Shown here piece by piece: positions 36,324 to 40,989 of a stretch of DNA of 64,000 nt. Location of the stretch: the NCBI GenBank assembly GCA_015071005.1, contig SVIG01000003.1, positions 62,001 through 126,000 of the forward strand. Reading direction: 5' to 3'. A program made the translations under genes and the position numbers. Source of the DNA: Clostridiales bacterium. Its GTDB lineage: Bacteria; Bacillota; Clostridia; Christensenellales; Borkfalkiaceae. Below the pieces are notes generated by a model. The model was not told the origin of the DNA. It saw nothing but the letters and a program-made list of their open reading frames with translations, and did no database searches. Numbering within the stretch: the first letter of the stretch is position 1; every line of letters starts with the position of its first letter.

Positions 36324-38795
36324 CTAATCCGCCTTTTTATACGGCATAGGGATAACCGCTTTCACGGAATCTTCCGCATAACGCAAAACCCTCTTTGCTC
36401 GTGCACTTTGCACCGAAATGAAGATGTCTTCGCTCGAAAGCTCGGAGACGGCGTTATTCTTTTCTACAACCGCAAGCATATATGGTACGGTGACGTACGA
36501 AGCGCAAATTACGCTTGCGCCTTCGCGTAAGCTTACGACCATCGAGCCCTTGCGATAACGCTTCGACGGCTCGACTTGCGAAGAAATAACCCTCTTGAAT
36601 TTCCCTTCGTCCGTTGCAATAATGATCTCGCCTTCACCGTTGACTTGCGTCATCAGCACGACTTCGTCCGTTTCACGAAGCTGGATACCGCGTACGCCCG
36701 TAGCGATTCTGCCTTGGACGGGAATATCGTCTTTTAAGGCGTTCAAGCCGATACCCTCTTTCGTGACGATCATAATGGTGTCTTCTTCGTCCGTTTCCGC
36801 TTCCACGTTCAAAAGCTCGTCGCCTTCGTTTAATTTCACCGCTTGGAAGGAATCTTTGCGTTGTTCATATTCCAACCAATCGGTCTTTTTAATCATACCT
36901 TTCTTCGTGAAGAACAGCAAGTTACCATACGGCATACGTTCGCCGATTTCAAAGAGTGCAACCACTTTTTCACCCGTTTCCGCATCCTTGGAAAGATCGC
37001 GCAAGGAAAGCCCTTCGTCCGAAAGCTTGCAATCGAGTTTCGGATCGGAAATATCGAGTTTATGACAGTTCCCGTAGTTTGTGAATGCAAAAATGCGTTT
37101 ATCGGTCACCGTTTTCAAAAGCTGACGCGCTACAAGAGACGGCTTAAAGCGACTGTTGTCAATCGGTTTTTCCAACCCCTCTACCTGTTTACCCGTCAAG
37201 ACCTTGAATTTCTCGTCCTCGGTGTAAACCAACGTACACTTCACACCCGCTTTCTTTTCCGTAGCGGTAGCAAGCATACCGTCTGCTTCTTCTCTCGTAT
37301 AGACGAGCTTCGATCTTCTCGGCGAGGGATAGCTGTTTTTGATTTCCGTGATTTCTTCTTTGACAACTTGCAACTGCAAATCTCCGTTTTTAGAAATCGC
37401 AGAAAGTTTTTTAATCGTCTTTTTGAGTTCCTTTAACTCGTTTTCAAGCTTGTAAATTTCAAGCTTGGTCAAGCGAGCAAGTCTCAAATCCAAAATCGCT
37501 TGCGCTTGCGCTTCGCTAATGGAGAATCTTTCCATAAGTTTCGCTCTCGCGTCAGAGGTACTTTCGGATTTTTTGATAATTGCAATGACTTCGTCGATAT
37601 TTTGAACGGCGATAATCATACCTTCCAAGATATGACAACGCTGCTCTGCTTGGCGTAAATCAAACAGCGTGCGGCGTTTTACGACCTGCTGCTGATATTT
37701 TACGTAATGACGGATAATTTCCATCAAACCAAGCTGTTGGGGTTTACCATCGGCAATCACGACCATGTTTATACCGAACGTAACTTCCAAATCGGTGTAT
37801 TTATACAAGCATTTCAAAATACCGTTAATATCCGCGTCCTTCTTAACGCGAATAACTGCGCGCATGCCGCTTCTATCCGATTCATCGGCAACGTGGTCAA
37901 TCCCTGCAAGCTCGTCTTCCTTTTCATCGCAAAGCTCTACAACCTTTTTCAAAAGTTGCGCCTTGTTGACCTGATAAGGCAATTCCGTAATTACAAGATT
38001 CGTTTTGCCATTATCCGTCTTTTCAAGGATAATTTTAGCACGGAGCGTGATTTTACCGCGCCCCGTTTTATACGCTTGAATGAGCTCGTTTGCGATAATC
38101 AAGCCCCCCGTAGGGAAATCAGGCGACGGAATGTATTCCATCATTTCTTCGAGCGAAATTGCGGGATTATCAATGTATGCGACGACGCCATTGATAACTT
38201 CTTCTAAGTTATGCGTGGGAATATTCGTCGCAAGCCCTACCGCGATACCCGACGCACCGTTTACAAGCAAGTTCGGAAATCGCCCGGGCAAAATATCCGG
38301 CTCTTTCAAGCTGTCGTCGAAGTTGAAGGAAAAGGAAACCGTTTCCTTATCAATATCACGCAAAAGCTCCAAAGCCAAAGGCTCCATTCTCGCTTCGGTA
38401 TAACGCATTGCAGCAGCAGGATCGCCGTCGACCGAACCGAAGTTTCCGTGACCGTTGACAAGCGTTTTGCCCATGTTAAAACTCTGCGCCATACGCACCA
38501 TTGCATCGTATACGGAACTATCGCCGTGCGGATGGAATTTACCCATACAGTCACCGACGATACGCGCACACTTCTTGTGCGGTTTGTCGGGCGTCAAACC
38601 CATTTCGTTCATCGTATAAAGAATACGTCTTTGTACGGGCTTCAAACCGTCTTCTACACGTGGCAGCGCACGGTCGAGAATAACGTATTCCGCATACGGA
38701 AGCATGGACGAATGAAGTACGTTTTCAAGAGGTTCTACGAATAATTGACCGGTAGGCTCGATTTTTTCGGGCTCTTGTTTTTTATTTCTCGCCAT
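36324..38795 (-). CDS. parC: type IIA topoisomerase subunit A, topoisomerase IV (ParC)-like
   Basis: An 823-residue subunit that cuts and rejoins DNA. The N-terminal breakage domain has [36 protein letters not shown] and the catalytic Tyr in [11 protein letters not shown]; a coiled-coil gate ([21 protein letters not shown]) and a six-bladed C-terminal domain follow. The GyrA box QRRGGKG needed for negative supercoiling is absent; its place reads [14 protein letters not shown], so a decatenating topoisomerase IV is more likely than gyrase. It overlaps the B-subunit gene by 14 bases. Confidence 0.85.
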
Positions 38796-40989
38796 CTTCG
38801 TCCCCCTTCTTCGTCGTTTTTTCTATCTTGTCGATAAAGGTATCGCGTTTATTGAAATTAGCATATTTTGCAAGGAATTCCTTTCTGCCTTCTACCTTAT
38901 CGCCCATAAGCGTCGTAATCATACGTTCCGCCTTCGCCGCGTCTTCTACCGTAACTTGAATCAAGTTTCTCGTGGCAGGATTGAGCGTCGTTTCCCAAAG
39001 CTGCTCCATACTCATTTCACCAAGACCTTTATAACGCTGCAACTGATATCCCTTGCCGATTTTTTCAATCTTCTCGTCAAGCTCTTTGTCGTCGTATGCG
39101 TACTCGACTTTATCGCCCTTATAAACTTTGTACAAAGGCGGCATACCGATATATACGTAGCCTGCGTTTACCAAATCGCGCATATAACGGAAGAAGAACG
39201 TAAGCAAAATACAACGAATATGCATACCGTCTTGGTCGGCATCGGAAAGAATAATAACTTTGTGATAATTGCTCTTTTCGAGCTTAAAATCGGGATCGAT
39301 ACCCGCACCGATTGCGCTGATCATCGTACGGATTTCTTCGTTTTCAAGGATTTGCGAAAGCTTTTTCTTTTCAACGTTCAACGGTTTACCGCGAAGGGGC
39401 AAAATCGACTGATAATGTCTATCTCTGCCCTGCTTTGCCGTACCGCCTGCCGAGTCCCCTTCTACGATGAAAAGCTCGTTATTTTCGGGTTTCTTGCCCG
39501 AACAGCCCGCAAGCTTCCCAATCAACGTCAAACCGTTGATTTTGTTCGTCTTACGGATATTGTCTTTCGCTTCTTTCGCTGCAATACGCGATTTTGCCGC
39601 GCCTTGCGCTTTTTTGATGATTTCTTCCATGGTCTTTTTATAACCACGGACGTTTCTAAACGCGTTAAAACCTTCGACTACCGCACTTTCTACCGCAGGA
39701 CGAGCTTCGGTATTGCCGAGCTTCGTCTTCGTTTGACCTTCAAATTGCACCACCGCCAATTTTACGGAAAGTACGACCGACAAGCCTTCGCCAAAGTCGT
39801 CGCCTTGGAAATTCGGGTCTTTGTCCTTCAAGAAACCGTTGTTTCTTGCAAACTCGTTCAAAACTCTCGTCAACCCCGAATGGAAACCCATTTCGTGATA
39901 ACCGCCCTCAGGGGTAGGAATATTATTGACGAAGGAGAACATTTTTTCTCTGTACCCATGATAATGCTGAATCGCAAATTCCACATGGATATCGTTCTTT
40001 ACCGTCGAATAGTAAATCGGTTGAGAATAAAGCTTTTTCTCGCTGTCGTTCAAGCTCTTTACGTAATCGGAAATACCGCCGTCGAATTTGAACGTCACAC
40101 GGTAGGGCTCGCTTTCCAAAGCAAGCTCGTCCACTTCGCCAAAGAGAGAAAGCTGACCGTCTTGCGCCACGTCGAATAAATCCTGCGCTTCCGCGCTTTC
40201 TACTGCGTTTTCCGTAGCGGTTTCTTCCCCGTTTTCCCCTTCAGCGGCATTTTCTTCACTTTCGCCTAAAAACATTTTCGTGCGCTTTGCTTCCGCCATC
40301 GTAATGCGTTCGTCGATAAAGGTAATTTCCACTCCTTTATTCAAGAATGCGAGCTGACGAAGACGTTCTTCTACCGTATCTAAATCGAATTCCGTTTCGG
40401 AAAAGACGGTCGCGTCCGGCTTAAAGCGGACAAACGAGCCTTGTCTATTCGTGCGCACGCCCGTATCTTCCAAAGGGCCGTCGGGAATCCCCGATTCCAC
40501 CTTTTTCTTACGTGCGTTATATTTAGAATGGAAGCTCATTTTATAAACGCGCTTATTTCTATATACTTCTACGTTTAACCATTCGGACAACGCGTTCGTA
40601 ACGGACGCACCTACGCCGTGCAAACCACCCGAATATTCATAGTTTCCCTGTCCGAATTTACCGCCGGCGTGCAACTTTGTGAAAACAAGCTGAACACCCG
40701 AAACCTTTTCTTTCGGGTGAATATCGGTGGGAATACCGCGCCCGTTATCTTCTACCGACGCACTCCCGTCTTTATGCAACGTCACTTTAACCTTGTTCGC
40801 AAAACCGTTTGCCGCTTCGTCAATCGCATTATCCACGATTTCCCAAAGAATGTGATGCAAGCCCTTAATACCAGTCGAACCGATATACATACCGGGGCGC
40901 ATACGTACGGCGTCAAGACCTTCCAAAACTTCCAAGTTTTTCGCGCTATAATTGTTGTTTTGGGTACCTTCTTCCTTTTTTACTGCCAT
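38782..40989 (-). CDS. parE: type IIA topoisomerase subunit B (ParE-like) with an acidic clamp-motif insertion
   Basis: A 735-residue ATPase subunit. GHKL motifs: [17 protein letters not shown], and [14 protein letters not shown]; the Toprim domain has [18 protein letters not shown] and [12 protein letters not shown]. Between the ATPase and transducer strands (about residues 234-295) is an insertion of some 55 residues, rich in Glu and Ala, that ordinary GyrB/ParE lack. It contains GQLSLFGE, with QLSLF at 279-283, the classic beta-clamp-binding pentapeptide. The start at 40989 (MAVKKE) is set by AGAGGA; an upstream extension has no support. It forms an operon with parC. Confidence 0.9.

Follow-up and report, generated by a model that had tools for sequence, protein, structure and literature searches.

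The topoisomerase subunit ParE encoded in the window, the whole 64,000-nucleotide stretch of contig SVIG01000003.1 of a Clostridiales bacterium analysed here, carries the pentapeptide QLSLF, which is of the beta-clamp-binding type. This peptide is real, conserved, clade-specific and clamp-like, and it is located at the end of an insertion that is predicted to be disordered. A topoisomerase IV tethered to the sliding clamp is the best explanation of these features and, judged from the sequences, a probable one. With somewhat less assurance, it is likely on balance that this clade of gut Clostridia wired its decatenase to the clamp via a polymerase-grade peptide, and that precatenanes would be removed as they are formed. 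The relevant features are listed below, with the ATG at 40989 giving ParE residue 1.

36324-38795, minus strand: parC, predicted topoisomerase IV subunit A; it shares 14 bases with the end of parE, and a search for a GyrA box in it gave no hit.
38782-40989, minus strand: parE, predicted topoisomerase IV subunit B of 735 aa, with the ATG at 40989; named from its Pfam domains and the closest solved chain, 4juo.
40156-40281, minus strand: acidic variable linker, ParE residues 237-278, supported by charge-hydropathy, pLDDT and column entropy.
40141-40155, minus strand: QLSLF, clamp-binding-type pentapeptide, ParE residues 279-283, characterized by conservation, pN/pS and identity with the peptide of the organism's own DnaE.
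40174-40185, minus strand: QDLF, ParE residues 269-272, a possible degenerate second clamp-like peptide seen in the translation.
40099-40140, minus strand: conserved block of 14 residues after the peptide, ParE residues 284-297, recognized by conservation in the genus; helix 281-293 and strand 295-300 are predicted here.

A 407-codon open frame running antisense within parE (38956-40179, plus strand) is mechanical, and there is no evidence that it is a gene.

The GHKL ATPase, transducer, Toprim and C-terminal domains are all present in ParE (Pfam HATPase_c, DNA_gyraseB, Toprim and DNA_gyraseB_C), and the nearest solved chains, 4juo and 4i3h, are both topoisomerase IV subunit B. The NCBIfam equivalog cut-offs are missed by ParE (parE_Gpos, 754 of 900 bits) and by ParC (parC_Gpos, 702 of 813 bits), the gyrB equivalog also stays below its cut-off for ParE (803 of 882 bits), as does the gyrA equivalog for ParC, and only broader subfamily models pass. 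Gyrase subunit A is separated from topoisomerase IV subunit A by the GyrA box. None was found in the ParC of the window; it is present as QGRGGKG in a separate GyrA of the same genome, which forms a second pair with a GyrB over the gyrB cut-off (G000:C2). The name topoisomerase IV is thus based on the absence of the GyrA box and on the pairing, not on the NCBIfam equivalog models. From the genes alone, the window enzyme is a predicted topoisomerase IV (ParC2ParE2), for which decatenation and relaxation without supercoiling are expected. ParC and GyrB were rejected as further carriers of the motif: the ParC of the window harbors merely QRRIL, far from the consensus, and neither insertion nor clamp motif was seen in the GyrB frame of the 9 same-genus genomes read.

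ParE was compared across 57 genomes of the same genus, and the linker region was readable in 39 of them; the other 18 were left out at the linker, having no ParE match among the matches listed or only a C-terminal part (G041). No ParE match was among those listed for 17 of the 57 genomes, and 14 of these 17 also had no ParC-like match. That some members of the genus have lost topoisomerase IV was considered and rejected, since all 17 genomes are 58-82% complete and missing contigs suffice to explain the absence; for the 14 genomes with neither match, missing contigs are probably the cause and loss is possible.

Between the ATPase and transducer domains of ParE, about 50 acidic residues are inserted. 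The alignment to 4juo and 4i3h ends at residue 229 and resumes at residue 298, and those chains show a short turn at this place. An earlier note on this DNA had described such an acidic insertion where relatives have a short turn; its nature and location hold, and its length is refined from about 55 to about 50 residues. Measured from a DER motif to the peptide, the linkers of the 39 same-genus sequences span 28-56 residues (50 in the window), with a mean Asp+Glu content of 37%, and a charge-hydropathy analysis calls the linker unfolded in all 39. They are highly variable: the 24 alignment columns numbered -25 to -2 relative to the peptide have entropies of 2.2-3.7 bits, and linker pN/pS is 0.78 (Nei-Gojobori counting, all 39).

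The peptide itself behaves differently from the linker that precedes it. QLSLF is found at ParE residues 279-283, where the earlier note had placed it, and the check suggested there, a conserved peptide within a variable linker, has come out in its favour, with QxxLF in 33 of the 39 sequences and a peptide pN/pS of 0.21 against 0.78 for the linker (Nei-Gojobori, all 39). The stricter pattern Qx[SD]LF occurs in 30/39. QQSLF is the dominant form (24/39), followed by QASLF (2/39), and QLSLF (the window species alone), QSSLF, QQTLF, QGDLF, QESLF, QENLF and QGNLF occur once each; the six sequences departing from QxxLF read PRDLF, PHDLF, PQDLF, PQSMF, ALSMF and QEFLL. Column entropies of 0.65, 1.72, 1.09, 0.29 and 0.17 bits at positions 1 to 5 indicate that positions 1, 4 and 5 are the most fixed, that position 2 is free, and that position 3 is S, D, T or N in all but one of the 39 sequences. 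Correspondingly, position 1 has a pN/pS of 0.09 and position 5 one of 0.01 (all 39), and the peptide as a whole is under purifying selection. For the peptide of the 33 QxxLF sequences pN/pS falls to 0.15, with no change at positions 1 and 5 while the codons vary; this figure is partly given by construction, as the pattern itself served to select these sequences. The block that follows the peptide is held just as tightly (pN/pS 0.21, all 39). In the six-frame stop-to-stop stretches of at least 100 aa of the window (34,198 residues), no other Q-x-[SDTN]-[LM]-F was found besides the ParE peptide. Clamp-binding motifs follow the consensus QL[S/D]LF or QxxLF, of which the first, fourth and fifth positions are named as essential in PMC12309361. 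The ParE peptide meets this consensus, and its fixed positions 1, 4 and 5 are the ones named there.

Some linkers hold more than one such peptide. Upstream of the main peptide, a second copy of the form Qx[SDT][LM][FL] is present in 10 of the 39 linkers, e.g. QMDLF (G008), QLDMF (G014) and QLDLF (G053); when each linker was shuffled 2000 times, which ignores relatedness, second copies turned up in 0.07 sequences on average and never in more than 1. The QDLF of the window linker (residues 269-272) is not among these 10 fuller copies. Looser patterns match more linkers ([SDT][LM]F in 17/39, [LM]F in 26/39), and the strict pattern alone was used because the looser ones also pick up the conserved MLF/TLF with which the region begins.

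The origin of the motif was traced on a ParE tree built without the linker, in which 36 of the 39 same-genus sequences were placed together with 11 others (the fragments G056, G018 and G015 were left out). The base of the genus is occupied by the sequences with PQDLF, ALSMF and QEFLL, then by those with PRDLF and PHDLF, and the remaining 31 genus rows, all QxxLF, form one clade (support 97/87). Because this clade lies above basal rows of non-QxxLF type, parsimony on the ParE tree suggests a single origin of the canonical motif within the genus, followed by retention in the rows read. Since the five non-QxxLF sequences in the tree are basal, the LF pair may have preceded the glutamine. The motif is a clade-level innovation. 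In the sister genus g9, the ParE linker is shorter, and Q[LI][DG][LI] is found at the site in all 30 genomes read (L173-L178, L189-L208, L210-L213), followed by A in 12, M in 6, L in 5, E in 3, and V, I, T and D in one each, never by F; where parsed, DnaE of this genus has QxSLF. The g9 peptide may be a weak clamp motif or a remnant, or else a structural strand that gave rise to the motif. In a further sister genus, g4 (4 genomes, L169-L172), a fast-changing peptide is seen at the same site: QISLE (within EQISLEN), QPDLI in two genomes, and MPDLF. No such ParE peptide was found in ten genomes from seven other genera of the family. In the order and phylum samples, 47 of 52 loci could be parsed (5 were unparsed), stemming from other families plus one sister-genus locus of the same family (L216); these show the short turn and no Q..[LM]F at the site. 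Alignment A1 includes 53 of 80 named loci, all 80 of which were kept out of the counts because many are from the same species as same-genus genomes already counted.

As an internal control for clamp motifs, PolC was rejected, as none reaches the curated cut-off in the 57 genus genomes, and DnaE was taken instead for this reason. Replication in the genus seems to rest on DnaE1 alone, and Clostridia with DnaE1 alone have been described (PMC3919608). A DnaE-type polymerase is present in the organism's own genome (G000:C10:159969-160268 and upstream), and this DnaE (L262) carries QLSLFG, the same hexapeptide as the ParE of the window. Q[IL]SLF forms the DnaE clamp site in 35 of the 36 same-genus loci read (a count that includes L164): in 30 of 30 (26 plus 4) that stem from the 30 best DnaE matches among 53 matching genus genomes, and in five (G055, G016, G054, G053, G003) of six further ones, the sole exception being QLSFF (G007, L163). 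In a check of 28 genomes of the family (24 from sister genera, 4 from the genus), Q-x-[SN]-[LF]-F was found in 24; the script required the motif itself, and the 4 unparsed genomes may lack it. DnaN is present in the organism's own genome, over its cut-off. It shares L155, G174, R176, P363, M364 and R365 with E. coli DnaN and differs by T172 to L, H175 to V and L177 to M; positions 155, 172, 174-177 and 363-365 line the clamp peptide pocket. Pol IV (DinB) of the same genome was rejected as a motif control, as no clamp motif was matched in it by the pattern used.

An AlphaFold2 model of ParE from 54 sequences reached a mean pLDDT of 76.7 and a pTM of 0.57. Residues 243-280 have pLDDT values below 50. 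A low-confidence helix covers residues 281-293 (mean pLDDT 56 for the block 281-290), and a strand is formed by residues 295-300 (mean pLDDT 88 for the block 291-300). In this model, the peptide would sit where the disordered tether joins ParE, with S281-F283 predicted to be either free or the first turn of the helix. Since the modelled helix begins at residue 281, ParE itself might provide the surface against which L282 and F283 pack.

This last point leads to the alternative that the peptide is a structural element, in which L282 and F283, at the beginning of helix 281-293, would be packed against the ATPase or the transducer domain, Q would act as a cap, and the likeness to clamp motifs would be coincidental. 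This is considered unlikely. The modelled helix, the equal conservation of the block after the peptide, the retention of [LM]F or LL in basal species lacking the canonical Q, and the conserved Q[LI][DG][LI] of g9, followed by a residue that varies, all agree with a structural role, but such a role predicts neither the choice of S/D/T/N at position 3 with a free position 2, nor the match with the organism's own DnaE, nor second Qx[SDT][LM][FL] copies in the disordered part, and the helix start is modelled at low confidence (block mean 56). It is quite improbable that the insertion is an acidic regulatory loop (one that mimics DNA close to the N-gate, for instance, or serves for docking) whose peptide binds a partner other than the clamp: no result obtained here points to a competing partner and the peptide fits a named motif carried by the own polymerase, even though the Asp+Glu content of the linkers (mean 37%, 39 sequences) and an acidic insertion at the same site of the GyrB chains 8s7k and 6gau, free of a clamp motif in the aligned stretch, are what such a loop would lead one to expect. 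Chance is very improbable indeed. An accidental QLSLF-like peptide is to be expected somewhere in a proteome, a five-residue pattern alone is weak, and the exact QLSLF occurs in 1 of 39 sequences; against this stand the conservation of amino acids while codons vary and the single origin with retention in 31 rows.

The clamp-tethered topoisomerase IV is favoured because the peptide is conserved in a variable, acidic and predicted-disordered linker; because its positions 1, 4 and 5 are the most conserved, with position 3 mostly S/D/T/N and position 2 free; because the own replicative polymerase DnaE has the identical hexapeptide; because some linkers hold extra clamp-like peptides and DnaN is encoded in the genome; and because of the single origin and retention in 31 rows, with same-genus GyrB (9 genomes) having neither insertion nor motif. 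It is weakened because conservation is no lower in the following block than in the peptide (pN/pS 0.21 for both, 39 sequences), because g9 never has F at position 5 (30 genomes), because the own DnaN departs from that of E. coli at pocket positions 172, 175 and 177, and because the pattern used matches no motif in DinB. Of the clamp-binding reading put forward in the earlier note, the sequence-level predictions were thus mostly borne out, apart from the 6 of 39 sequences that depart from QxxLF and the low-confidence helix that starts inside the peptide.

As proposed, the flexible acidic tether of ParE would end in a beta-clamp-binding motif, and the peptide would dock in the hydrophobic pocket of DnaN, presumably the same pocket that DnaE uses. 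ParC2ParE2 would offer two peptides, or more where second copies exist, and the clamp dimer has two pockets; topoisomerase IV could therefore be held on clamp-marked new DNA behind the fork, where sister strands wind into precatenanes. Binding to DnaN would then serve decatenation behind the fork, where topoisomerase IV is described to relieve precatenanes (PMC13220808). If true, replication and the unlinking of sisters would be connected directly and in a testable way, and nature would have supplied a design with which to ask if tethering to the clamp suffices. The interaction would moreover have been assembled step by step inside a single genus, with the insertion, the LF core, the glutamine and the second copies as steps still readable in living species.

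Among known systems, the mycobacterial GyrB chains 8s7k and 6gau resemble the window ParE in that acidic residues are inserted between ATPase and transducer, at the corresponding place of the fold; they differ in that the insertion is shorter, belongs to a gyrase, and contains no clamp motif in the aligned stretch. Beta-clamp-binding motifs are also carried by Pol IV and MutL. The bacterial clamp-binding proteins DnaE, PolC and RecB follow the same consensus QL[S/D]LF or QxxLF, and the window ParE peptide is that of its own DnaE; B. subtilis PolC uses QLSLF, with a KD of 3.8 uM for DnaN (PMC12309361). Unlike these known bacterial carriers, the carrier here is a type IIA topoisomerase, and if the reading is true, a topoisomerase joins the bacterial clamp interactome. 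In the literature covered by the search, seen in part and with preprints and most subscription papers outside its scope, no report was found in which a type II topoisomerase of bacteria carries a clamp-binding motif.

How topoisomerase IV finds precatenanes is only partly understood, and a route described in PMC5061553 is that of E. coli, in which the enzyme is placed by MukB through ParC. There, as proposed here, a decatenase is placed by a partner protein, but the partner is an SMC complex and the contact lies on ParC instead of on a linear ParE peptide. The nearest system in principle is eukaryotic topoisomerase II alpha with PCNA, in which a type IIA topoisomerase is likewise linked to a sliding clamp. 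The PCNA-binding peptide of topoisomerase II alpha belongs to a class different from that of the bacterial clamp peptide. In the portion of PMC9690074 available, topo II alpha is given among the PCNA partners in a table, and the sole occurrences of the words topoisomerase and gyrase are one sentence of the introduction and, among the PCNA partners, an entry on topoisomerase 1 (the abbreviation 'topo' was outside the scope of that count). The eukaryotic pair differs from ParE in its clamp and in its independent origin. If true, the arrangement proposed here would be the bacterial counterpart of the link between eukaryotic topoisomerase II and PCNA, and would have arisen independently of it and recently.
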